Source of the DNA: Pirellula sp.
GTDB lineage: Bacteria > Planctomycetota > Planctomycetia > Pirellulales > Pirellulaceae
Assembly: GCA_021300155.1 (NCBI GenBank)
Contig: JAJTID010000156.1
Coordinates: 1-35,857 of the forward strand
Reading direction: 5' to 3'
Length of the DNA stretch: 35,857 bases
Under the pieces are notes generated by a model. The model was not told the DNA's origin. It made no database searches and saw only the letters and a list, made by a program, of their open reading frames with translations. Both the position numbers and the translations under genes were made by a program. Below, one piece after another: positions 12,818-35,488 of this stretch; the first letter of the stretch is position 1, and every line of letters starts with the position of its first letter.

Positions 12818-13657
12818 TTAGGGGGCGGCGACAGGTTCTGGCTTTCGCTCTTCTTTATGCTGATGCCCATCCGTTCGCTTGTGGTCGTCGGGCTTTACCA
12901 TGTGCCCTTCCACCCTTACTTTGTACATTTCGTCTTCGATGACCTTCGCGGCCTTGGAATCGGTTGTCTTTACGGCAACCAACGAAGCAATCCCTGCCGC
13001 ACCGATGAATACACCAAAAATTGCACAAAAAACACTGGCTCGATTTTGGGACTTTGGAGTAAGCCAAAGTCCCCAAGTGATGCCTGCCGTCCAAATACCA
13101 TTTGCCAAGTGAAACGTGCAAGCCAGAACGCCGACCAGATAGAAAATTGGCCACACAATTCCGCCGAAATCGTTCATCGCATCCGCCAGAGAACTCGCTG
13201 CGTTATAGGGTCGGAACTGTGCCATTCCCAGCGGTTCCGCAACGCTCTTGAGCCACCAATCCATGTGAAACCATCCGTGAAGATGGAAGACGTGCGTGAA
13301 AATGAAGATAATGGCAATGTAGCCTGTCATTCGCTGCCACGAATATCTTCGATTGTGCGTGTAACGATATTGCTGAACGTTTGACTTTCCAGTTTGTGCG
13401 ATCCAAACACCGACCGCAGCGTGGAACAAAATCGGGCCAAAAATAAAGGCCCATTCCACTAACGGCAGAAATGGAATCGAGTGGATCGTAAATACGTTGT
13501 TTTGGAAAACGCTCGCACCTGCTAACAAACTGGCGTTGGTGATCAAGTGAACGCACATATACGCGCCCACCGGGACCAACCCGCTAAGCGAGTGCAAACG
13601 ACGAATGAGAAATTCGTTGCGGTGAAAAAAAGACAAGGCGGAGCTGTTGGAAGTCAT
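12818..13657 (-). CDS. sdhC: Succinate dehydrogenase cytochrome b subunit (single di-haem anchor)
   Basis: A 279-residue membrane anchor of the five-helix B-type family, as in B. subtilis SdhC. Candidate haem axial histidines stand in helices: His22 (RRLHSLSG), His37 (CVHLITNAS), His79 (LFHAAVGVW), His122/125 (THVFHLHGW) and the His of FHLANGIW. A single anchor gene with two haems explains the absence of sdhD. Unlike the roughly 200-residue Bacillus protein it has a cytoplasmic, highly charged, His/Lys-rich tail of some 50 residues (DDHKRTDGHQHKEERKPEP). It is the first gene of the sdhCAB block, with a 452-bp region between it and the divergent coiled-coil gene. Confidence 0.92.
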   Translation of the reverse strand: MTSNSSALSFFHRNEFLIRRLHSLSGLVPVGAYMCVHLITNASLLAGASVFQNNVFTIHSIPFLPLVEWAFIFGPILFHAAVGVWIAQTGKSNVQQYRYTHNRRYSWQRMTGYIAIIFIFTHVFHLHGWFHMDWWLKSVAEPLGMAQFRPYNAASSLADAMNDFGGIVWPIFYLVGVLACTFHLANGIWTAGITWGLWLTPKSQNRASVFCAIFGVFIGAAGIASLVAVKTTDSKAAKVIEDEMYKVRVEGHMVKPDDHKRTDGHQHKEERKPEPVAAP

Positions 13658-14109: not shown

Positions 14110-14949
14110 ATGACGTTTCTTGGTCGAGTCTTCACGATTGTAATCCTCGTTTGTAGCGTGGCATTTTTTGTTGCTGCTTTGTTGGCAAACGCTTCCCACA
14201 TGAATTACAAAGACAAATTGGTTGACCTCCGCAAGCAAGTGGATCAGTTGAATACGACGATCAAGGCGACGAAGACAGCAAACGAAAAGTTGCAAACGAG
14301 CCTCAGCCAAGAGCAAATCGCTCGTCGTGCAGCGCTTGCCGCATTGCAAACTCAATTGGACTTATCAGCATCCCAACTAGCGGAAGCGAACAAGAAGCTA
14401 AGCGATTTGAACTCTGTAAACACCATGCAGAATCAAAACTTGTCGCAAACCATCGACCGATTGAAGTCAACGCAAAGTCAGAACGAAGCGTACAAAGCTG
14501 AGATCGACAAAGTGATCACCGATAGGAATGCCGTTCGGATTGCCGTAATCAAGCTGACCGACGAATTGAATAGTCTCAAGAGCATTGAGTCGGATTTGAT
14601 CGCTCAGGTCAAGCAGTTGCAAGACTCCTCGACCATGTTCGAGGCTTTGTCCGAAACGCGAGGCTCAGCACTCAAGAGCGTTGGCCTGACAGACGTAGAT
14701 GATGTTCCACCAGCAGATCTTCGAGGTGAAGTCTTGGCGGTCAACAGCAATCAGCTCGTTGAAATTTCTTTGGGCCGGGACGATGGACTGCGTGAAGGCC
14801 ACACTCTCGAAATCTATCGCGGTGCTCAATATCTCGGCCGAGTTCAAATTAGCAAAACGCAAGATGACAAATCGATCGGCAAGATCTTGGCATCGTTCCG
14901 AAAAGGCTATATCCAAGCGGGTGATAAAGTCGCTTCCAAAGTGCAGTAG
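14110..14949 (+). CDS. Membrane-anchored coiled-coil protein, unknown function
   Basis: A 279-residue protein with one N-terminal membrane helix (about 9-28), a long alpha-helical coiled coil rich in Gln, Lys, Leu and Asn (about 32-185), and a small C-terminal beta-rich domain (about 205-279; GEVLAVNSNQLVEISLGRDDGLREGHTLEIYRG..., ending AGDKVASKVQ). The layout (inside-out helix, periplasmic coil, terminal beta domain) resembles scaffold or adaptor proteins, but I recognise no family. RBS GGTGA precedes the ATG. A strong promoter lies 115 bp upstream, and a 56-residue single-span protein follows 69 nt downstream, probably in the same transcript. Confidence 0.85.
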   Translation: MTFLGRVFTIVILVCSVAFFVAALLANASHMNYKDKLVDLRKQVDQLNTTIKATKTANEKLQTSLSQEQIARRAALAALQTQLDLSASQLAEANKKLSDLNSVNTMQNQNLSQTIDRLKSTQSQNEAYKAEIDKVITDRNAVRIAVIKLTDELNSLKSIESDLIAQVKQLQDSSTMFEALSETRGSALKSVGLTDVDDVPPADLRGEVLAVNSNQLVEISLGRDDGLREGHTLEIYRGAQYLGRVQISKTQDDKSIGKILASFRKGYIQAGDKVASKVQ

Positions 14950-15790: not shown

Positions 15791-17422
15791 ATGGATCAGA
15801 TCATCAAACAGGTGGCGCGGGCACGGCGACTACTTTCACTGCAAATAGCGACTTCGATCCTCCCTTGGACTCTTTTGGTTGCATTTGGAATCTGCTTCGT
15901 CGCATTGCTCGTACCTAAGATTTGGTACTTGCCCATGGTTGGACCGAACTGGCCCACGCTGTGGTTGACTGCGGCTGCCATTGCTGCACTGCTTGCGACT
16001 GCACTCATCGCCTTTATTCGTCGACCAAGTATTCGACAATCCGCACTGGAACTCGATCAACGATTCGGATTACGAGAACGAGTCAGTAGCGCATTGGATT
16101 TGAATGCCCAAGATAGAAACACCCCAATCGGCGAGGCTTTGCTCCATGACGCAGCGACGAAAGCGGAACGAATCGATGTTCGTGATCAATTTCCGATACG
16201 TTTTACAGCGATCATGCCTTGGGTGCTTCTTCCTGTTTTGGCATGTGTTTGCTTGTTTTGGGTTCCCGACGCGGAACTACCCGAGCTGAAGAAACTCGGT
16301 GCGAATAGTCAAGAACGTTTGAACAACGTAAAGGCCCAGACAAAGCCAATCCTGGAACAACTCACAAAAATGCGAAAGGACCTCGAAGAGAAAGGTCTTC
16401 AGGAAAGTGCGGAAGAATTCAAGAAGCTCGAAAAGAAACTCGAGGATCTGCAAAAGTCCCAGACCATCGACACCAAAAAACTCCTGGCGGATTTCAACGA
16501 TATCAAAAAGGAAATGGAACAACGAAAAGACTCCTTCGGATCGAGCGACAGCCTCAAGAAGGCGATGGATGGTCTAAAGAAAATCGACAAGGGCCCAGCG
16601 GATCGCGTTGCCGATTCTCTCAAAGAAGGGGACTTTAAAGAAGCGAGCAAAGAAATGGAAAAGCTCCTTACACAGTTGAAACTGAACAAGCTGACCGATG
16701 ATCAAAAGAACCAATTGGCCAATCAACTCAAGCAGATGGAAAAGGCCATCGAAAAAGCTGTACAAGAACAAAAAGATGCGCTGAATACAATGAAGCAACA
16801 GTTGCAACGAGCCGAACAAGCGGGAGATATTGAGAAGGCTGGCATGTTGCGGAAGAAAATGGAGCAACTTGAAAACGCGATGCAAAAGGCAGAGAAAGCC
16901 AGCAAGATCTGCGAGCAATGTAAGAATGCAGCTCAGGCTCTCAAGGATGGAGATCCTCAAGCAGCGCAAAAAGCACTGGAAGCAATGCAAGCTGAACTCG
17001 AAGAAATGGCCGCCGACGCCGAAGCCATGGAAGGGCTTCAGGAGCTGATGGATGAAATGCAAGAGGCCAAAGAAAGCGCCAAATCAGGCCAAGCCGAGGG
17101 CGGCAAGGGCAATGGAAAGAAGAAGGGTGACCCAAGCCGAAACGCAAGAGGCGAGGGCCAAGGTGCTGGCGATCGTGAAGAAACAGAAACAGACACGAAG
17201 GTCTTCGATTCTCAAGTCAGAGATGAAATGAGAAAGGGTGAAACCGTTTTTGGTGGCAAAGTCGGTGGACCAAACCGTAAAGGTATCACCAAAGAAGAAG
17301 CTCGTAACTCAATCTTGAACTCCAAGCCGGACGATCCGGATGCCATCGAAAACATGGCACTGCCAAAAGCACAGCGAGATCAGCAGCGGGAATACTTCGA
17401 TTCGCTTCGAAGTGGGAAATAG
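15791..17422 (+). CDS. Large membrane-anchored coiled-coil protein, unknown function
   Basis: A 543-residue protein. N-terminal part: two membrane helices (about 20-43 and 56-76), a conserved-looking segment with LELDQRFGLRERVSSALDL (86-104), reminiscent of the start of DUF4175-like proteins, and a third helix (about 143-162). The rest is a very long, highly charged Lys/Glu/Gln coiled coil (about 172-425) and a disordered Gly/Lys-rich segment (about 440-465) before a polar tail. The coil would lie in one compartment anchored by the three helices; a structural or scaffold role is inferred. RBS GGAGAG lies 8 nt before the ATG. It is followed after 190 nt by aspartate kinase, probably separately expressed. 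Confidence 0.85.
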   Translation: MDQIIKQVARARRLLSLQIATSILPWTLLVAFGICFVALLVPKIWYLPMVGPNWPTLWLTAAAIAALLATALIAFIRRPSIRQSALELDQRFGLRERVSSALDLNAQDRNTPIGEALLHDAATKAERIDVRDQFPIRFTAIMPWVLLPVLACVCLFWVPDAELPELKKLGANSQERLNNVKAQTKPILEQLTKMRKDLEEKGLQESAEEFKKLEKKLEDLQKSQTIDTKKLLADFNDIKKEMEQRKDSFGSSDSLKKAMDGLKKIDKGPADRVADSLKEGDFKEASKEMEKLLTQLKLNKLTDDQKNQLANQLKQMEKAIEKAVQEQKDALNTMKQQLQRAEQAGDIEKAGMLRKKMEQLENAMQKAEKASKICEQCKNAAQALKDGDPQAAQKALEAMQAELEEMAADAEAMEGLQELMDEMQEAKESAKSGQAEGGKGNGKKKGDPSRNARGEGQGAGDREETETDTKVFDSQVRDEMRKGETVFGGKVGGPNRKGITKEEARNSILNSKPDDPDAIENMALPKAQRDQQREYFDSLRSGK

Positions 17423-21605: not shown

Positions 21606-22895
21606 TCAAATTCGCACGAAGATTCGGTTTCGGTAAAGCCAGTAAAGAATGAGCCAAAAGATTTTCAATGTCGCAACACCGATGAGAAACGAAGTTACCA
21701 GACCAGATTTAGAAGCGTCAATCTGAAGGAAGCCAACCATTTGTTCCGATAGCCACTCGATCCAACTTCCAAAGTGACGGTTTAATGCTGCATGGGTCGA
21801 TTTCTCCATCGTCCACGACATGACATACGCCACAATGGAGTTTGCACCGATCACCGTAAACGGGAAGGCCCAAATCGTAAATTTAAACTGATCGCAAGCC
21901 AGACTTAGACCTGCCAACCAAAGGAAACAGATTCCACCACTCCACAATGTCCAAGATGGCGTCCAAATTCGCTTGACGATAGGGCAAATTCCCACCATGT
22001 CTACAACATAGGACAGAATCAAACACACTGCACCCAGTGCGACTAGTACACCGAACTTGCGTCCCCAATCCGAGAAAAGCATCATCAACCTTCCTGCGAT
22101 CAGTCCAAGAATCATGGTTCCCAGCGTCGGTATAAAGCTCAAGGTTGCGTATCCACCTCCCGAATACTCGAACGGCTTTTCTCGGGGAAATAGATTCATC
22201 CACCAACGATCAAAAGCCCAGGCCAAATTAGAATTCTTATTGAAGTGTGTCGCCATTCCCTCTTTCCAGTGCTCAGGCCAATCGACCGGAACACCGTATT
22301 TGGCATAGGGGAAATCTGCCCCCGGAGCAGGATAGAGAATAAAGCAACCCCAATACCCCACCAAGACGATAGCCAAAGATACAGATAGGCCTCGAACAGA
22401 TAAGGATGACAAAAGGAATAGAATCCAATATCCCAGTCCGATCTGAGTTAACGTGTCGTCAAAGGTGAAATTCGTGGAGGGTTTTCCCAAACTGCGAAGA
22501 AAGATACCGAGCGCGATGAGAATCAGACTTCTTCCCACCGCATGGCGTAGCAACAAGAACCAGGATTGTCCTTTGGATTGTCGAGAACCAATCGAGTATG
22601 CCATTGCTGCACCAACCAAGAATGTAAAGCTTGGTTGAATCATGTCGTGCAGCGAACAACCGGTCCATGCGACGTGTGTTGTATTGAACTGAATCCAACT
22701 CGCAATCGTTCCAATCCAGTTATCTCTGTCGAACACGCTTCGAAGCTTGTCGAGATGGAGGATTTCCGCCAACATCAAGAACATGACAAGACCACGGTAG
22801 ACATCGAGGCTGGCAACACGAGTCGGTGTCGATATTGGCGTTTGTCTATTCAGTCCGGCAACAACGGAATCAACACCGTCGGATAGGTTTGACAT
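21606..22895 (-). CDS. HGSNAT-like membrane acyltransferase (DUF5009/DUF1624 type)
   Basis: A 429-residue polytopic protein with about ten membrane helices, related to human heparan-alpha-glucosaminide N-acetyltransferase and bacterial NagX (COG4299). Family motifs: RVASLDVYRGLVMFLML (26-42), THVAWTGCSLHDMIQPSFTFLVGAAMA (73-99; His74 is the likely acetyl-carrying His) and IGLGYWILFLL. The family moves acetyl groups across the membrane to sugars; the acceptor here is unknown. A longer form from a TTG at 22952 is possible, but ATG 22895 places the start sensibly before the first helix. It is divergent from the AraC remnant. Confidence 0.88.
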   Translation of the reverse strand: MSNLSDGVDSVVAGLNRQTPISTPTRVASLDVYRGLVMFLMLAEILHLDKLRSVFDRDNWIGTIASWIQFNTTHVAWTGCSLHDMIQPSFTFLVGAAMAYSIGSRQSKGQSWFLLLRHAVGRSLILIALGIFLRSLGKPSTNFTFDDTLTQIGLGYWILFLLSSLSVRGLSVSLAIVLVGYWGCFILYPAPGADFPYAKYGVPVDWPEHWKEGMATHFNKNSNLAWAFDRWWMNLFPREKPFEYSGGGYATLSFIPTLGTMILGLIAGRLMMLFSDWGRKFGVLVALGAVCLILSYVVDMVGICPIVKRIWTPSWTLWSGGICFLWLAGLSLACDQFKFTIWAFPFTVIGANSIVAYVMSWTMEKSTHAALNRHFGSWIEWLSEQMVGFLQIDASKSGLVTSFLIGVATLKIFWLILYWLYRNRIFVRI

Positions 22896-23035
22896 GAGTG
22901 ATTGAAAGGAGAGTGTGTTCAGACTCGGGGCCACAGGGAGAAGGCATGACAAAAGAGATCGGCTCCTCCGTACCGATTATAAAGCATTTGATCTCGGCCT
23001 GGGAACATGGGTTGCTTAGTGATTGCAACTTTTGA

Positions 23036-28533: not shown

Positions 28534-29445
28534 TCAACCCAACACTTCGTGAATCATCCTTTCCAAAAAAGATTTCATGTTGTCGAGCGAGGGACGTTTG
28601 AGTAACAGCGGTTCGTTGAGGAGTCGACTCAGCGACTGAGGCTGTACCATTTCACGAAGACCTTCGACGTAGCCCGTTGCTGCAAACGAAGCCATATTGA
28701 TGATGGCGTTTGGGTTGAAGTCATGCGAAACGTTTTGGTCGCACCAGGTGATCGGTATGCATCCGGCGGCGAATGCGTCCGGTATCTTTTCCGTATAGTA
28801 GCCAGGGTACATAGAATTTTCTGGACAAAGTGCAAACATTTTGTCGCGGCAGACGTCTAGCTTCAAAAACTTCTTTCCCTTGGACTCGGGGAATGCGCTG
28901 CCATAACACTCCACCTCCATGACTTGCTTGGTGGCTTCCAAGAGTGTGGCCCTCGGCTCTCTTTGATGCGAGCTGATCAATATTGCCTTGAACATCTTGG
29001 CAGATTGCGATTCAATTGGTCGCATCAACTGTTCGATTGGGATCGGTGGACCGAGACGTTCTTCACCATCGGTTTCGACTCCTTCATGTCGCCAATCAAA
29101 CATGGCCATCCATAATGGGAAGCGACAGTGATGAACGTTGGTTACCCCTAGGTCGAAAGAGATGGAGTAATCGCACGGGATCGTATTCCATCTCATATTC
29201 TCACCCGTTTGATACAAAACTCGCGGCAGGTTCTTGCGACCAGCCATCGTCATCTTGAAAGCTGCTGGAAACTTAAGCTTCCATCCGAAAAACTTGTGTC
29301 GAAATGGACCGGCGATCAACAGATCGCAACATCTCGGGCTTACGCATTCAATCCGATCGCCGTAAAGAGATCGGATCAATCGGTAGATGAAATCCTTTTC
29401 ATATCCCTGGTATTGGCAAATGGTCGCGATTTTCAGTTTTCGCAT
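28534..29445 (-). CDS. Glycosyltransferase family 10 (alpha-fucosyltransferase type)
   Basis: A 303-residue GT-B enzyme. The C-terminal motif ALCPENSMYPGYYTEKIPDAFAAGCIPI (205-232) is the GT10 donor-binding region, with the conserved YTEK at 217-220. TGEN (80-83) and FDLGVTN (97-103) in the N-terminal half are also typical. GT10 enzymes transfer fucose from GDP-fucose in alpha-1,3/1,4 linkage, though other sugars are known, so acceptor and donor remain open. No signal or membrane anchor is seen, so it should act in the cytoplasm. It follows the DUF1080 fusion gene by 75 nt and is convergent with the ABC ATPase gene (37 nt apart). Confidence 0.88.
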   Translation of the reverse strand: MRKLKIATICQYQGYEKDFIYRLIRSLYGDRIECVSPRCCDLLIAGPFRHKFFGWKLKFPAAFKMTMAGRKNLPRVLYQTGENMRWNTIPCDYSISFDLGVTNVHHCRFPLWMAMFDWRHEGVETDGEERLGPPIPIEQLMRPIESQSAKMFKAILISSHQREPRATLLEATKQVMEVECYGSAFPESKGKKFLKLDVCRDKMFALCPENSMYPGYYTEKIPDAFAAGCIPITWCDQNVSHDFNPNAIINMASFAATGYVEGLREMVQPQSLSRLLNEPLLLKRPSLDNMKSFLERMIHEVLG

Positions 29446-29520
29446 CTAGTTCTTCTGCAGTATTTCAGAACACTACGGTGGTGCAAAGGAACACTTCCAT
29501 AAACCGAAGCATCCCATCGG

Positions 29521-32500
29521 TTACTCATCCACGCCGTTCAGCACATACGCCAGCAAATCCAAAATCTCTTCCTTGGTCAAGAACTTTAGCAAGTCATCTG
29601 GCATCGGCGACACCTTGGATGGAGCGATACTCACAACGGATTTTCTGTCGATATTGGTCCGTTCGTTCGGGTCGGCTGCGTTGGTATTGAGCGTTATCGT
29701 GTCCCCCTTTAGGTTGACGACTACCCCTCGGATTCGTTCCTCATCTTCGGTGATCACTTCGATCGGAACAAACTGTTCGTTGATTTCTTTGCTCGGTAAC
29801 ATGATCTGTTCGACCAAATCCCGAACCGAATATCTTCGACTAGCGCTTGTCAGATCAGGACCGTTCATTCCGCCCGCATTGCCGAAACGGTGGCAGGTGT
29901 AACAACTGGCTGCACCGAACATCTTGCGGCCGTTTTCAAGATTGCGTTTCGCCACGCCAGCCGCAATGGAGCCCTCTTTTTGAAACTCTTCTGTTGCCAT
30001 CCGGACGATGTCTTCCAGTTGAAGCCCGTTCGGTTTGCGACCGACAAACATGGCTCCCGCGGTTTCGATCGCCGACTTATTCTCAGGTTTTCTTTCCAAG
30101 ACCTCTTTGAGGACTTCCTTTTCGTTGTCGCTCATCGATTTGATGGCGTCGTCGCGGATGAACTCGACGAACTTGGCAAAGCTCGCGCCGCCACGAAAGT
30201 TGGCTGCTTTCAAGAACCACTCGAGGTAGGCTGTGCGTGTTTCTTTGGTCCAGCCTGTTTGAAGTGTGCGAAGCGAACGAGCGTATTCGATTTGCTCTTC
30301 CTGGCTTGGAGCATTCTGAATAGCGGCCATTCCTTTGGTTGCAATGTTCGGTGATCCCAAAAAAACAAGCGTTTCACACAAAAGCCAATTCATTTCAAAT
30401 GATGCTGCAGGAAATGCGGGATCCAGTTTCGCAATCCAGGCATTGGTCCTTGTCTCGTTCGGCTTACCAAAACGATTCAAAACGATTTGAAGCGTTCGCG
30501 CGTATGCAAACTGCCGTTCTTTCGGCAAAGAGGCGAAATCGATTCGAGCCAAACTATCAAGCAGTTGACTTCCTAACTCCGTATCTACTGGCTTCGTATC
30601 GTCTTCCCGGTGCAGCGGGCAAACTCCACCCACTCGGGCTGCTGCCAGAATTGCCTCGATCTGAACCTTCGGGTCGGACTCACGCATCATCCGATCTTTC
30701 CAGGAGCCGAGTGGCTGATGCTCGAGGGCTGTACGAGCTGCCCAACGCACGAACCGATCCTTGTGCCCTAAGTGCGGCCATGCCTTCTCGATCGCCTCCG
30801 GGGTTTGCTTCCCATGAAAGACTTCCAGGCTTAATCGCAAGTCACGTTCGGGGTTTGAGTTCTCCATGCTTGATTGCCGGGCAGTGGATTCGTTCCCCAC
30901 GTAAGTTACCCGATAGAGCCCCGATTGGACTTTGCGTCCGCCGATCGCGAAGTACATAGCTCCGTCACGTGGATTAATGATCGCATCGGTCAGCGGTAGG
31001 GGCGAACCCGACAAAAACTCTTCTTTGGTAGCGCGGTAGGTGGCACCATCGGGTGTCAAATGAACCGCATAAAGTTTGCCCCAGCTCCAGTCCAGAATAA
31101 AGAAAGCATGTTGGTACCTGGCAGGGAATTTGGCACCGTAACCAAAGGTCGTTCCGGTGGGAGAGCCAGGTCCGATATTGATCGTCGCTGGCAAATTGTC
31201 AACATAAAACTCGGGTCGCTTGCCCGCTCCATTTCGCCAACCATACTCAGCACCGCTAACCACATGGTTCACGCGAGTGGGGCGGTACCACGATGTATTG
31301 AAGTCGTATTCCATGTCTGCATCATACGTGAACAGTTCACCAGCCTCGTTCAAGGAAGCATCGAAGATGTTTCGATACCCACTGGAGTAAACTTCAAAGT
31401 CCTTCCCGTCGGGTGATACACGATAGATAATGCCGCCGGGAGCCATGACGTCGCGCATGAACCCGCGACCATCTGGCATCCGAGGGAGTAAATGATCTTC
31501 ACCCCACACCGCAGGCACTTGGGAAGTGGAGGTTGTTTGCGTTTTCTTGGCACCATTGCCACATACTAGATAGAGGGCTTTTCCGTCAGGCGTTGGTAGC
31601 ACAGCGTGGACTCCGTGATCTCCTCGCGCAGTGATCTCGCGTAGGAGTTCGACTTTGTCCAAGTCACCATCGCCGTTGCTATCGGTGATGCGATACAAGC
31701 CACTAGGGACTTTATTCTCATAATCGTTTACGCCAACATAAAGCGAGTCAAACGCCCATACCATGCCATTCACAGCCCGAATCTCAACGGGTAGTTTCAC
31801 TACATCTTTGGGATCAAGTGCTTTGCCTAACGCTGGTGCATCGAATCGAAACAAACCGCCGTACTGATCGCTCGCGAGGATTCGGCCTTTGTTATCCAAG
31901 CATAGATTCACCCATGACCCTTGATCATCTCCTGGCACTGAATAGAGCAATTCGACACGAAAGTCTTTGAGGACTTTGATCCGATCGACGGGTGTGGCCT
32001 TGTTTTCATTGACAGCGACTCCCGTTGCTGGCTTGTCTTTCGATGCTTTTTCGGCCGAAGGTTTGTCGTTCGAGGCATTAGCCTTTTGTCGATTCTTGCG
32101 GTCGGCACCCTTCTCTTGGCTTTCTGTTGGCGCGGCAGTTTTCGTAGCCTGCGCTTTGGAGTCGGACTTCTTTTGTGGAGCAGCTTTCTTGGCGGATGGT
32201 GTTACTTTGGTGGCCGTGGGTGGAACAGGGAAATTGGATTCAGTCAACAGCTCTGCGTCGCCTAATTCCTTCAACAAGATTTGCTTGATTTCTACTCGCA
32301 TGGCTGGTCCGCGGTGGACTTGAAACGCTAAGAGTCCTTCGAGTTCACGTTCTGATTCTTGCTGGTCGACGACATCTACAGTCGTCTTGCCATTGACTTG
32401 GTGAACGAGTCGGTTGCCTTTAGCGATGATGGTGTACTCATTCCATTCATTGATATCAACGGACACAGGTGGTCGGCTTTCGGTGACCCATTTCTCGCCA

Positions 32501-32934
32501 GATTTGGTAACGATCATCGATTGGCCGTTGGATGCGACAATTCCACGCCCACGTTCGTCGTATAGCATTGCGTTGTTGGCTGGAGTTGGGTGAATGTCGA
32601 ACTGATATCCACCAATCGACCACTTCCCTACCTCCTTGAGTTCTTTCGATCGATATTGAATGCCCGAGTTGTTTCCTTTTTGTTTGGCAACAACTTTCAA
32701 TTCAAAGTTCTTGACGGTACCACCTCGCCAGATCAAGAACTGATTGTATGGAAGTGGTTCGTCTGCCTTGGTGATGCCGACAATGACTCCATTCTGGACA
32801 CTCCAAAGTTCAGGATTGCCGTCCCAATCGCTCAAATCGCGTCCATTGAACAGTGACTTCTCTTGCCCATAGACATGGAATGACAACGAAATGCACAATG
32901 CAAACACGAAGACATGAAAAAAATTTTTCGTCAT
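29521..32934 (-). CDS. DUF1080 / beta-propeller / cytochrome c fusion (PVC-type haem protein)
   Basis: A 1137-residue exported protein. Signal peptide (about 1-23, YGQ). Domain 1 (about 25-230): DUF1080, a 3-keto-disaccharide hydrolase fold with a jelly-roll pattern (LFNGRDLSDWDG, GIQYRSKEL). Then a Lys/Ala/Thr-rich linker (about 240-312). Domain 2 (about 315-690): a PVC-type dehydrogenase beta-propeller (LKDFRVELLYSVP, GDHGVHAVLPTPDGKALY, RNIFDASLNEAGELFTYDADMEYD). Domain 3 (about 700-985): HEAT-like helices. Domain 4: a haem-binding domain with CYTCH (1011-1015; Cys1011, Cys1014, His1015), followed by GMNGPDL and the conserved tail. Covalent haem c attachment is expected. Family members are widespread in planctomycetes and probably oxidise sugars or related compounds, passing electrons to the haem. 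Its neighbours are a cupredoxin upstream and a GT10 enzyme downstream, all on this strand. Confidence 0.92.
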   Translation of the reverse strand: MTKNFFHVFVFALCISLSFHVYGQEKSLFNGRDLSDWDGNPELWSVQNGVIVGITKADEPLPYNQFLIWRGGTVKNFELKVVAKQKGNNSGIQYRSKELKEVGKWSIGGYQFDIHPTPANNAMLYDERGRGIVASNGQSMIVTKSGEKWVTESRPPVSVDINEWNEYTIIAKGNRLVHQVNGKTTVDVVDQQESERELEGLLAFQVHRGPAMRVEIKQILLKELGDAELLTESNFPVPPTATKVTPSAKKAAPQKKSDSKAQATKTAAPTESQEKGADRKNRQKANASNDKPSAEKASKDKPATGVAVNENKATPVDRIKVLKDFRVELLYSVPGDDQGSWVNLCLDNKGRILASDQYGGLFRFDAPALGKALDPKDVVKLPVEIRAVNGMVWAFDSLYVGVNDYENKVPSGLYRITDSNGDGDLDKVELLREITARGDHGVHAVLPTPDGKALYLVCGNGAKKTQTTSTSQVPAVWGEDHLLPRMPDGRGFMRDVMAPGGIIYRVSPDGKDFEVYSSGYRNIFDASLNEAGELFTYDADMEYDFNTSWYRPTRVNHVVSGAEYGWRNGAGKRPEFYVDNLPATINIGPGSPTGTTFGYGAKFPARYQHAFFILDWSWGKLYAVHLTPDGATYRATKEEFLSGSPLPLTDAIINPRDGAMYFAIGGRKVQSGLYRVTYVGNESTARQSSMENSNPERDLRLSLEVFHGKQTPEAIEKAWPHLGHKDRFVRWAARTALEHQPLGSWKDRMMRESDPKVQIEAILAAARVGGVCPLHREDDTKPVDTELGSQLLDSLARIDFASLPKERQFAYARTLQIVLNRFGKPNETRTNAWIAKLDPAFPAASFEMNWLLCETLVFLGSPNIATKGMAAIQNAPSQEEQIEYARSLRTLQTGWTKETRTAYLEWFLKAANFRGGASFAKFVEFIRDDAIKSMSDNEKEVLKEVLERKPENKSAIETAGAMFVGRKPNGLQLEDIVRMATEEFQKEGSIAAGVAKRNLENGRKMFGAASCYTCHRFGNAGGMNGPDLTSASRRYSVRDLVEQIMLPSKEINEQFVPIEVITEDEERIRGVVVNLKGDTITLNTNAADPNERTNIDRKSVVSIAPSKVSPMPDDLLKFLTKEEILDLLAYVLNGVDE

Positions 32935-33048
32935 GATGAAGACCGATAGAGAGTCACTAGGAAAGGAAAGTGAAAGGCCATGAGCGAATGGCTACCCCCC
33001 GCTCTTTGGAGACTACTGATTTAGGCTCGGCTTGTTGGATCATGGTGG

Positions 33049-33116
33049 GCCGTCAGGCGCTAGCCCCGGTTGCCGCTGATGGCGAAGCCACTACACCGGG
33101 GCTGGCGCCCAACGGC
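33049..33116. repeat. Large imperfect inverted repeat (REP/BIME-like)
   Basis: The arms are GCCGT...GGCGC.AGCCCCGGT (33049-33070) and ACCGGGGCT.GCGCC..ACGGC (33095-33116): 9 perfect pairs, a wobble, 5 pairs, a 2-nt internal mismatch and 5 more pairs. The loop carries a small second hairpin (TGGC-GAA-GCCA, 33080-33090). High GC, symmetric arms and an intergenic position are typical of dispersed repeats in planctomycete genomes. I recall similar sequences in this group, but copy number cannot be shown from one window. Confidence 0.7.
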
Positions 33117-33146
33117 TCACTAAATTAGTACTCTTCTTTGGGAGGA

Positions 33147-33177
33147 GCGGCCGAAGGCCGCAGTGGGCATACTGCGG
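33147..33177. repeat. Two overlapping, mutually exclusive hairpins
   Basis: GCGGCC-GAA-GGCCGC (33147-33161) and CCGCAGT-GGGCAT-ACTGCGG (33158-33177) share the CCGC at 33158-33161, so only one can form at a time. Both have perfect stems. No T tract follows. Confidence 0.65.
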
Positions 33178-33218
33178 AAATCAAATGCTACTTGCACTTC
33201 ACCCAACCTTCGCTTTAC

Positions 33219-33242
33219 TCGACCCTCCCAAAGGGAGGTCGA
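33219..33242. repeat. Bulged hairpin TCGACCCTCCC/GGGAGGTCGA
   Basis: Ten base pairs with one bulged C around an AAA loop. It could act as a weak bidirectional terminator downstream of the cupredoxin gene (its stop is at 33309), although no T run is present on either strand. Confidence 0.6.
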
Positions 33243-33308
33243 GAAATATGGATGCAGCCATAAACCGTTTCAAAGTGCGCCTTGGGAGAACATGCTAGAT
33301 CGAACGAA

Positions 33309-34112
33309 CTACTTCTTGAATCGATCGATGTTGATCACAACCTTACCAAGATCATTTACGCCTTCTTTGAGCGTCATCTTGGTGGAGCCTTTGACCCATT
33401 TTTCCTTCTTGCCATTGACCGTCACTTCTTCGATCGACTTGTCTTGGTTCTCATGCCAAATCTTGAAATCCAAAGGAATGCCTGCAGGAAGTTTCTCAAT
33501 CTTGATCTTTCCATCCCCATCACTGATTCCAACGTAAGGATGATTGAAGACCATTACGTAAGCGCTCATCCAAGGATGAATATTGCACTCGACCTTGGTC
33601 GGAGCTTTTTCTTCCAACTTCGTTGGGATATCTACGCTCGACATGGCTGGAATCGTTGGATTCTTTTCTTCGTTTGCAAAGAACGCAAACTTCGCGTTGT
33701 GTGCCGTTGAGTCCGAGTTCTTAACTTCGATCGATTGACCAGCTCGTACCGCCATAACGTGCGGGATGAACTGGCATTTGAGGTTGTCAAGAATTGGCTT
33801 TGTCTTGGGAACTGCTCGAAGATCAGGGTGAATGTCTTTTTCTGCGATGGTCGTTTTTTTGGTATCGATGGTAAACACCAAGTTTGCGATCCCGTTGTTG
33901 GTTGGGTTTACCACCAACTCTTCCGAGGGAAGACCTTTTTCAGGAGATTTGCATTGAGGATCTTTCGCATTGGCATTCATGAGCTTTGCCGCGGGAGCTT
34001 TACCTTCAAGCACGACGGTCAAAGTTACATCGGCCCATTTCTGAGCTTGTGTGTCCGCTGCGATGAGGCAGGGAAGAGCCAAAGCAACACATCCAACAAA
34101 CATTTTCTTCAT
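33309..34112 (-). CDS. Exported cupredoxin-like (type 1 copper) protein
   Basis: A 267-residue protein with a signal peptide (about 1-23, TQAQ). A central cupredoxin domain carries the type 1 copper ligands: His138 (STAHNAKF), Cys176, His179 and Met182 in CNIHPWM. The CxxHxxM spacing equals that of amicyanin. Downstream (about 185-215; NHPYVGISDGDGKIKIEKLPAGI) is a carboxypeptidase-regulatory-like strand pattern, then a polar C-terminus. The N-terminal part (24-110) is of unknown function with two further Cys (54, 113). It should be a periplasmic single-electron carrier. It is the gene just upstream of the cytochrome-bearing fusion on the same strand, so it may exchange electrons with that protein. 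Confidence 0.85.
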   Translation of the reverse strand: MKKMFVGCVALALPCLIAADTQAQKWADVTLTVVLEGKAPAAKLMNANAKDPQCKSPEKGLPSEELVVNPTNNGIANLVFTIDTKKTTIAEKDIHPDLRAVPKTKPILDNLKCQFIPHVMAVRAGQSIEVKNSDSTAHNAKFAFFANEEKNPTIPAMSSVDIPTKLEEKAPTKVECNIHPWMSAYVMVFNHPYVGISDGDGKIKIEKLPAGIPLDFKIWHENQDKSIEEVTVNGKKEKWVKGSTKMTLKEGVNDLGKVVINIDRFKK

Positions 34113-34286: not shown

Positions 34287-34605
34287 ATGATTTCTATCGC
34301 ATGCTCGAAGTGCCTTCGAAAACTGAGAGTTTCGGTACCATCCGCCGAAAGCTCTACTTCGCAACCCTCCGTCATACAAGCAATTCCGTTGGCGAAGCCA
34401 GTACCGGCGTCCGAGGACCATTCCTTTGCCGAGTTTCCAAGTTACCACGTTCCAATGAAACGGCCGGAGGATGGTAGTTGTCATGTTGGTGGCCGTCGGT
34501 TGGTTCGTGGCTGGGCTAGCTGCCGGTGTCATATTCTTTTATCCTCCAGGGATGTTTGTTTTGGGCACGATTACGGTCGTCAAAGGCATTATGTCGAATG
34601 ACTAA
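34287..34605 (+). pseudogene. Zinc-ribbon/membrane protein gene, apparently frameshifted at about 34470
   Basis: Frame 1 starts at ATG 34287 with MISIACSKCLRKLRV, the typical start of planctomycete zinc-ribbon membrane proteins (a CxxC knuckle), and continues to about 34470 (FPSYHVPMKRPEDG). There the plausible protein switches to the +1 frame: ATG 34471 reads MVVVMLVAVGWFVAGLAAGVIFFYPPGMFVLG...VVKGIMSND and stops at 34605, an obvious membrane segment. Frame 1 itself runs on with non-hydrophobic sequence to TGA at 34601. The second CxxC expected in a zinc ribbon is not seen. Alternatively, two real overlapping small genes exist; GGAGG touches the 34471 ATG, too close for normal initiation. 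The next gene overlaps both ends (ATG at 34598). Confidence 0.55.
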
Positions 34606-35488
34606 CATTGAACGAAACGAGCTGAAGTTTCGACATAGTGAGAACCAAGGCCCTGTGCCATTGTTGGTCTATACTGCTGGCATTCAGGTTGTTGTCGCCT
34701 GGCTCTGTTTGCTCGGGGCTTATCTCTCGAACGGGGATGGCGACATTGTCCGGTTTCTCGCGATTATTGTTGGTTGCTTTACGGCCTTCGAGCTTGGGAT
34801 CGTTGTCTTCGTGACCCAGCTTATTTGGTTGCTCTCGGACGATGAAGCAGAGGCTCGCTCCATGCCATTCATCGTAGGCTATGTTTTGATCTCACAATCG
34901 TTGTTGCTGTTGCCGGTTTCTATCATCATCACTCTTTGGATGATCCCACTGATTATCGCCGTCGTGGTGTGGATCGGATGGTACTTTCAACGCTTCACCT
35001 GTTTTCGATTGGGATCAACCGAAGTTTCCATTCATCAAGGACCATTGAGCTTGATAAGCGTCCTGTTGCTACCGATGTGGGGGTTGGTATCTGGGTTATT
35101 GATCGCGGCTCCTTTCTTGATGTTTGGAATGTTTGCGGAGAAGCCCGGTCCATTCATCATTTACTGCAGCGTTGGTTTGTTTCTGGTGACCCTTGTTCCC
35201 GTAGCCGTCGCTTACTGCGTGCTGGCAAATCTACGCTCTGGCAAGATCTTCAGATGTGCGACTATCGCTGCCATTTTGTTTTTTGGAACACTTAGCTCAT
35301 CGATTGAGCTTTACTTTACGGGATGGGCGTTTTGGTCGGTCGTCTCGATGGCCACAATTGCATTCTTTGTAGCAGGGGAATGGACTGCCTTTCAATCGTA
35401 TCGAACGCGCGGAATACGAGTTCTGAGAGTTTCGCCAACCATCTCCTTAACCCATGCCCGAGCGGTCAAGTTCGAAGATGTTTACTGA
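34598..35488 (+). CDS. Polytopic membrane protein, unknown function
   Basis: A 296-residue protein with about eight hydrophobic segments (for example LLVYTAGIQVVVAWLCLLGAYL, LLLLPVSIIITLWMIPLIIAVVVWIGW, LISVLLLPMWGLVSGLLIAAPFLMFG). No transporter or enzyme motif is recognised. The ATG at 34598 overlaps the TGA of the frame ending 34601 (ATGA) and the TAA at 34605 of the +1 frame, so it is probably translationally coupled to the zinc-ribbon/membrane gene. A longer reading from 34526 exists but its start region belongs to the other gene. The two may form a membrane pair. Confidence 0.7.
   Translation: MTNIERNELKFRHSENQGPVPLLVYTAGIQVVVAWLCLLGAYLSNGDGDIVRFLAIIVGCFTAFELGIVVFVTQLIWLLSDDEAEARSMPFIVGYVLISQSLLLLPVSIIITLWMIPLIIAVVVWIGWYFQRFTCFRLGSTEVSIHQGPLSLISVLLLPMWGLVSGLLIAAPFLMFGMFAEKPGPFIIYCSVGLFLVTLVPVAVAYCVLANLRSGKIFRCATIAAILFFGTLSSSIELYFTGWAFWSVVSMATIAFFVAGEWTAFQSYRTRGIRVLRVSPTISLTHARAVKFEDVY

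Follow-up and report, generated by a model that had tools for sequence, protein, structure and literature searches.

The analysis presented here concerns three neighboring genes in a 35,857-nucleotide stretch of the genome of Pirellula sp. (assembly GCA_021300155.1, contig JAJTID010000156.1, positions 1 to 35,857; hereafter, "the window"), in which a gene for a multidomain fusion protein lies between the genes for a cupredoxin and a glycosyltransferase. An original prediction, made by reading the sequence, had placed the three on one strand and proposed that they form a compact periplasmic sugar oxidation chain. A check of the open reading frames (ORFs) confirmed the layout: the cupredoxin (267 residues; 33309-34112), the fusion (1137 residues; 29521-32934), and the GT10 fucosyltransferase-type glycosyltransferase (303 residues; 28534-29445) are all encoded on the minus strand, as are the domains and motifs given below, and are predicted to be transcribed in that order, with gaps of 374 bases (cupredoxin/fusion) and 75 bases (fusion/GT10) and no internal stops. 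A comparison of the window genome (G000) with that of a sister species (G167) gives ratios of nonsynonymous to synonymous substitution rates (dN/dS) of 0.066 (cupredoxin), 0.065 (fusion), and 0.101 (GT10); all three are under purifying selection and behave as working genes.

The fusion protein joins a DUF1080 (3-keto-disaccharide hydrolase) domain (residues 26-220; 32275-32859), a propeller with a fold like that of GSDH proteins and soluble glucose dehydrogenase (sGDH) (residues 311-690; 30865-32004), an all-helical repeat region (residues 691-985; 29980-30864), and a cytochrome c domain (residues 998-1131; 29542-29943). In the AF2 model (mean predicted local distance difference test [pLDDT] score, 73.8), the same parts follow one another: a beta domain, then a propeller, then helices only (695-985), and lastly a cytochrome. 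Thus, the predicted architecture held for the DUF1080 domain, the dehydrogenase-type propeller fold, and the c-type heme. For the HEAT repeats that it also named, "HEAT-like" is a fair but not proved description of a region that is helical in AF2 secondary structure and has no Pfam HEAT match at E 0.01, its profile weakly matching designed alphaRep (alpha-helical repeat) proteins (best E value, 4.9e-5).

The C-terminal heme domain scores above the NCBIfam cutoff for TIGR02603 (75.4 versus 68.15 bits), matches Pfam Cytochrom_C (E 2.1e-6), and matches Kustd1711 (7zs0) at 1.2e-9 as a single sequence and at 1e-14 as a profile. The alignment covers 122 residues of the C-terminal heme domain of Kustd1711, which differs from the fusion in being a two-heme protein of anammox bacteria. 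Four residues are invariant in a 30-row alignment of the fusion: C1011, C1014, and H1015 of the CYTCH heme motif (C1011-H1015; 29890-29904) and Met1111 (29602-29604). Met1111 aligns with M292 of 7zs0, which the available portion of the Kustd1711 study gives as the distal Met of the C-terminal heme (PMC11791136); by this alignment, Met1111 is the probable distal ligand of the fusion heme.

The DUF1080 domain matches PF06439 at E 1.9e-32 (113.3 bits versus a cutoff of 26.8). Its profile matches BT3469 over the whole domain (6.9e-28) and matches 8tda, 8rr2, 9fbe, and 8v31 at approximately 2e-9 to 5e-9 over about the N-terminal half; in the fold search, the last four are titled 3-keto-2-hydroxy-glucal hydratase or 3-keto-glycoside eliminase/hydratase. 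Judged by these matches, the domain is related to the 3-keto-glycoside hydratases/eliminases. It has its Pfam family and fold and profile matches in common with the DUF1080 enzymes (these four structures, BT2157 [3osd], and CCNA_01705), but the solved DUF1080 proteins stand alone at about 200 to 430 residues, and in the window protein, a propeller and a heme domain belong to the same chain. According to the accessible text of one paper, DUF1080 proteins encoded beside LacABC dehydrogenase genes, e.g., CCNA_01705, are proposed to be 3'-ketolactose hydrolases, and the same text cites a 3-ketotrehalose hydrolase function for BT2157 (PMC9007349).

DUF1080 lies in the same ORF in 59 of 105 fusion orthologs; to account for this distribution, the ortholog tree requires 11 gain or loss events, of which well-supported branches force 10. 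It is an optional, repeatedly changed part of the fusion family. At no fewer than three loci (L170, L232, and L238, L numbers being fetched loci), DUF1080 is encoded in an ORF of its own a short way upstream of the fusion ortholog, perhaps because the gene is split or the sequence is in error. Another ortholog (L009, in G109) carries a short DUF1080-like remnant ahead of its propeller and reads like the outcome of an internal deletion. DUF1080 is also joined to GSDH, in three of the five GSDH proteins scanned by Pfam (16 loci fetched). In the window genome, neighboring DUF1080 and GSDH matches at G000:C75:56007-57776 both report one 670-residue open frame, which is probably a second DUF1080-propeller pairing.

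What does the propeller resemble? Its best Foldseek matches are glucose dehydrogenases (2ism, 3.0e-10; 1c9u, 5.6e-10), and the fold is also matched by the pyrroloquinoline quinone (PQQ) domain of pyranose dehydrogenase (4.4e-7; 6jt5 among the named structures). In NCBIfam, TIGR02604 matches the propeller part below its cutoff (69.2 versus 122.2 bits), which makes it a relative and not a curated member. Compared profile against profile, the propeller also matches planctomycete GSDH proteins, and H440 and R521-N522 align, through these proteins, to columns that are invariant in 16 of 16 GSDH rows. In sGDH, the His and the Arg-Asn pair are catalytic residues.

Relatives of the fusion (E 1e-40) occur in 148 of 149 family genomes, mostly as paralogs or as forms whose alignment starts no earlier than about residue 290 to 310. 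Among the best 80 of 570 relatives in a search of named genomes, the titles are those of Planctomycetota or Verrucomicrobiota, with one given just as "bacterium," and the DUF1080-fused form is found at 47 of the 80 loci. The fusion is genuinely a common, widespread, and poorly characterized enzyme type of the Planctomycetes-Verrucomicrobia-Chlamydiae (PVC) bacteria (here, Planctomycetota and Verrucomicrobiota), and a description of its architecture was not found in the literature searched, which excludes most subscription journals. A protein with the same C-terminal domain architecture is Lac161_ORF7 (AGW45552), from a cosmid assigned to Chthoniobacter (Verrucomicrobia). The available text reports that it carries a TIGR02604 propeller, a HEAT repeat, and a cytochrome c domain (TIGR02603) in one chain, as the fusion does, and that it releases glucose from lactose in vitro (Km, 1.8 mM; kcat, 13.2 per s); in that text, it is described as a beta-galactosidase, with neither a cofactor nor DUF1080 named (PMC5342196). 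The likeness to the fusion is one of domain description.

The cupredoxin carries a signal-like sequence, judged by eye, and a C-terminal beta domain. As originally predicted, this is an exported protein with an amicyanin-spaced CNIHPWM copper loop (C176, H179, and M182; 33567-33587). All 30 aligned homologs keep the ligands H138, C176, H179, and M182, so that every row has the His-Cys-His-Met set with C-x2-H-x2-M, and two additional cysteines, C54 and C113, are invariant in the same alignment. C-x2-H-x2-M is the copper loop spacing of amicyanin, which receives electrons from a dehydrogenase. The cupredoxin profile matches amicyanin entries (best E value, 7.5e-5), and the AF2 model (pLDDT, 91.4) matches NirK and amicyanin in Foldseek. 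Neither Pfam nor NCBIfam gave a match at E 0.01; in an E 0.1 scan, Pfam Cupredoxin_1 and Copper-bind matched below their cutoffs. From its ligands, profile, and model, the protein looks like an exported type 1 copper electron carrier. It differs from amicyanin in its length of 267 residues, with an additional C-terminal domain, and service to amine dehydrogenase is a feature of amicyanin. Homologs are present in 138 of the 149 family genomes (E 1e-10), and the window genome has a second cupredoxin of the same family that is 52% identical (G000:C257:2218-2928).

Outside the genus, the relatives of this cupredoxin keep respiratory company. At nine of nine loci selected for at least two side-by-side cupredoxin matches in the family search (L088-L096), the paired genes adjoin those for a large eight-CxxCH (octaheme) protein and a two-CxxCH protein; on one side of the pair are the eight-CxxCH protein and the Rieske/cytochrome b genes, and on the other are the two-CxxCH cytochrome and the oxidase genes. 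In L088-L091, the eight-CxxCH protein itself ends in an additional, fused cupredoxin domain. Across ten genes of L094 and L093, Pfam finds Rieske, the N- and C-terminal parts of cytochrome b, cytochrome c, COX2, COX1, and COX3, with no Pfam match at E 0.001 for the two cupredoxin genes. The cluster is possibly a copper-linked bc-oxidase supercomplex. In a less selected sample of 23 extra-genus loci (L038-L060, from 30 fetched, with flanks of about 1.5 kb), 17 carry an ORF matching the diheme or octaheme cytochrome of L094 at E 1e-6, a threshold that could also admit generic cytochrome c; none of the genus cupredoxin loci among the 30 passes it. Among the extra-genus relatives, the closest one (G025, 52% identity) adjoins genes for a c-type cytochrome, CtaA, and UbiA. 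Because the extra-genus relatives are mostly found with c-type cytochromes, the cupredoxin family looks like a respiratory carrier, and by analogy with these relatives we infer a respiratory-type role for the window cupredoxin.

In total, we posit, at a probability of roughly 0.55, that the locus holds a secreted fusion that oxidizes and cleaves glycosides, an independent cupredoxin carrier, and an unrelated GT10 neighbor and that these do not make up a conserved functional unit. In such a model, the fusion would be a secreted PVC enzyme acting on glycans; its glucose-dehydrogenase-like propeller would oxidize a sugar unit, and electrons would pass from the propeller to the built-in C-terminal His/Met heme. 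In the forms that bear DUF1080, the 3-keto-glycoside hydratase/hydrolase-type domain would then cleave the oxidized glycoside. The cupredoxin would be an independent exported one-electron carrier whose family serves the respiratory chain in related genera, and GT10, which would build glycans, would lie downstream by chance. Of this model, the architecture, the fold resemblance, the conserved residues, and the absence of a kept gene order are shown, and the substrate, the electron flow, the propeller cofactor, and the carrier role of the window cupredoxin are inferred. PVC bacteria carry many uncharacterized heme-propeller and DUF1080 proteins, and a single chain that joins both would link redox cytochromes to glycan cleavage and extend the 3-keto route of sugar breakdown to an electron transport enzyme.

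Several observations weigh against this proposal. The fusion model has pLDDT scores below 50 within the propeller (478-484, 490-499, 539-552, and 565-581) and beside the heme motif (1014-1035). The propeller has no match to Pfam GSDH (PF07995) at E 0.01, and searching the PDB by propeller sequence alone returned only chance-level matches; its comparison with planctomycete GSDH by hhalign (E 3.4e-13 and 2e-15, probabilities of 97.9 and 98.5, according to direction) rests on low-diversity alignments. The Lac161_ORF7 activity comes from one paper, in the available text of which the tabled kcat/Km is 7.3 x 10^4, versus about 7.3 x 10^3 from its kcat of 13.2 per s and Km of 1.8 mM (PMC5342196). As for DUF1080, 46 of the 105 fusion orthologs lack it in the same ORF, and thus its cleavage cannot be a function common to the orthologs; furthermore, a Thermogutta DUF1080 protein is reported, in the accessible parts of two papers, to be an endo-xanthanase (PMC5673643, PMC10881899), so DUF1080 may also act as a plain glycosidase, and a 3-keto substrate cannot simply be assumed. 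Finally, the genus cupredoxin stands outside the respiratory cluster: none of the 21 genus genomes searched has a full-length match to the octaheme protein (6 show partial matches near its C terminus), which argues that the window cupredoxin would work outside that cluster. The cupredoxin is nonetheless retained in 25 of the 27 genus genomes (E 1e-20).

The question of the cofactor is a further difficulty. PqqC has no match in 146 of the 149 family genomes, among them that of the window (listed as 99.99% complete), and is strongly present in the other 3; the other pqq genes were not searched. Its absence from the matches in the window genome is an argument against host-made PQQ as the propeller cofactor and, together with the missing Pfam GSDH match, sets the window protein apart from the soluble quinoprotein glucose dehydrogenases that it resembles. 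PQQ uptake from outside may be compatible with this result. Alternatively, the propeller may use a cofactor other than PQQ, or it may not be a dehydrogenase. Could it instead be a hydrolase or a binding module, lactonase- or lectin-like, with the heme serving as a sensor, a structural element, or a generic relay? The PqqC result suits such a role, as do the fold match to a lactonase (8djf; E 3.2e-5) and the description of Lac161_ORF7 as a beta-galactosidase with no cofactor named in the text available. However, the glucose dehydrogenases (3.0e-10) lead propellers of other functions (from about 5e-6) by at least 4 orders of magnitude in E value, the His and Arg-Asn columns are common to GSDH, and the propeller and heme domains are the most constrained parts of the fusion between the window genome and the sister species (dN/dS of 0.020 and 0.013, against 0.146 for the linker, the least constrained). 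We regard a nonoxidizing propeller as possible but doubtful.

One can also speculate that the fusion acts by itself as a complete oxidative glycosidase, in which sugar oxidation at C3 by the propeller would depend on some cofactor that is not host-made PQQ, the heme would export the electrons, and DUF1080 would eliminate or hydrate the resulting 3-keto-glycoside. We hold this more specific scheme to be tentative and rather unlikely. If true, it would account for the pairing of DUF1080 with glucose-dehydrogenase-like propellers in two or more architectures and for how a relative that does not look like a glycosidase could release glucose from lactose.

Do the three genes work together, with the cupredoxin as the dedicated acceptor for the fusion heme in a sugar oxidation chain that includes GT10? 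Strand and order are alike in the window genome and in the sister species, where the fusion and cupredoxin proteins are 94 to 96% identical to those of the window and the order is the same through GT10, an ABC gene, and a DinB gene. The cupredoxin and the fusion are both redox proteins, both have signal-like starts by eye, and the amicyanin-like character of the former recalls a protein that takes electrons from a dehydrogenase. Against such a chain stands the gene order in relatives. Fusion orthologs of at least 67% identity are found in 8 genus genomes, all among the 25 that bear the cupredoxin; the other 17 have the cupredoxin without one. Where both occur, they are adjacent in just two of the eight genomes, those of the window and the sister species. 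In five (G136, G146, G155, G160, and G162), they lie on different contigs, with other genes upstream of the fusion, and in G168, the fusion gene is cut by a contig end, so that adjacency cannot be judged.

The wider searches agree. Among 107 distinct fusion orthologs (profile score of at least 900, identical copies merged, all loci fetched), the cupredoxin or GT10 is in the visible flank of the same two; these flanks extend at least 600 bases upstream in 99 and at least 1500 bases upstream in 81 and downstream in 80. Neither gene is near the fusion at the 80 named-genome loci, with flanks of up to 6 kb on each side and often less. Drift between the window genome and the sister species is similar in the 374-base gap (identity at 271 of 334 aligned bases; 61 gap columns) and in the sequence that lies upstream of the cupredoxin (identity at 303 of 382; 68 gap columns), and GT10 is present in just 4 of the 149 family genomes. 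Because the genus and family searches show no kept neighborhood, we rejected a three-gene operon or conserved unit; the three genes most likely came together locally and recently and do not form a system, and a dedicated acceptor role for the cupredoxin is improbable, although electrons may still pass physically between the two exported proteins. Of the compact periplasmic chain in the original prediction, what looks like a sugar enzyme with its own heme and what looks like a copper carrier survive, and the joint working of three genes does not; the three-gene order, which had been suggested as something to look for in other planctomycetes, is kept only in the window genome and the sister species among the genomes checked, and the cupredoxin and fusion genes are rarely neighbors in relatives. 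A one-strand gene trio in a single genome does not carry a pathway reading without a check of relatives.

The fucosyltransferase-type assignment of the downstream gene was borne out: PF00852 (43 versus 23.9 bits) and PF18025 score above cutoff in Pfam, GT10 being seen in Pfam and not in NCBIfam. No export signal is evident by eye at its N terminus. Of its homologs in the four family genomes (E 1e-8), two are at 29 to 34% identity, and in G146, GT10 lies on a third contig, apart from both the cupredoxin and the fusion. Given this distribution and the lack of an export signal by eye, the proposed link to a fucose-containing sugar has no basis, and GT10 is probably a patchily distributed, glycan-building, cytoplasmic enzyme that is downstream by happenstance.

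Pfam Sulfatase is the leading family among the scanned neighbors of the fusion orthologs (15 of 72, from 107 neighbors collected), and sulfatase signatures occur in 31 of 445 ORFs of at least 150 residues around them (L164-L243). A specific sulfatase link was rejected in that set, as such signatures are no commoner in adjacent genes (10 of 145) than in nonadjacent ones (21 of 300), and the abundance is at most a regional trend. That the fusion and GT10 are a small, recent, cotranscribed pair, serving, for instance, a surface glycan that is sulfated or fucosylated, would fit their strongly conserved 75-base gap (71 of 75 bases identical between the window genome and the sister species, no gaps) and the sulfatases nearby, but it is very improbable given the different contigs of the two genes in G146, the probably cytoplasmic work of GT10 as against an exported fusion, and the equal frequency of sulfatase signatures near and far.

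Promoter and terminator scan counts were near chance (4 versus a mean of 4.5 and 10 versus 8.1) and decide nothing. Four further ORFs, 12818-13657 and 14110-14949 (279 codons each), 15791-17422 (543 codons), and 21606-22952 (448 codons), have no Pfam match at E 1e-4. The longer-lasting neighbor of the cupredoxin is a divergent gene on the plus strand (34526-35488; no Pfam match at E 0.01), a homolog of which also adjoins the cupredoxin in G167, G146, and G168. Finally, a recurring gene of some 350 codons, its start nearly the same each time, is found at L062:5831-6871, L073:9978-11027, and L160:8238-9290. It adjoins the cupredoxin in G136 and G161, lies near the fusion in G146, and is possibly a mobile element.

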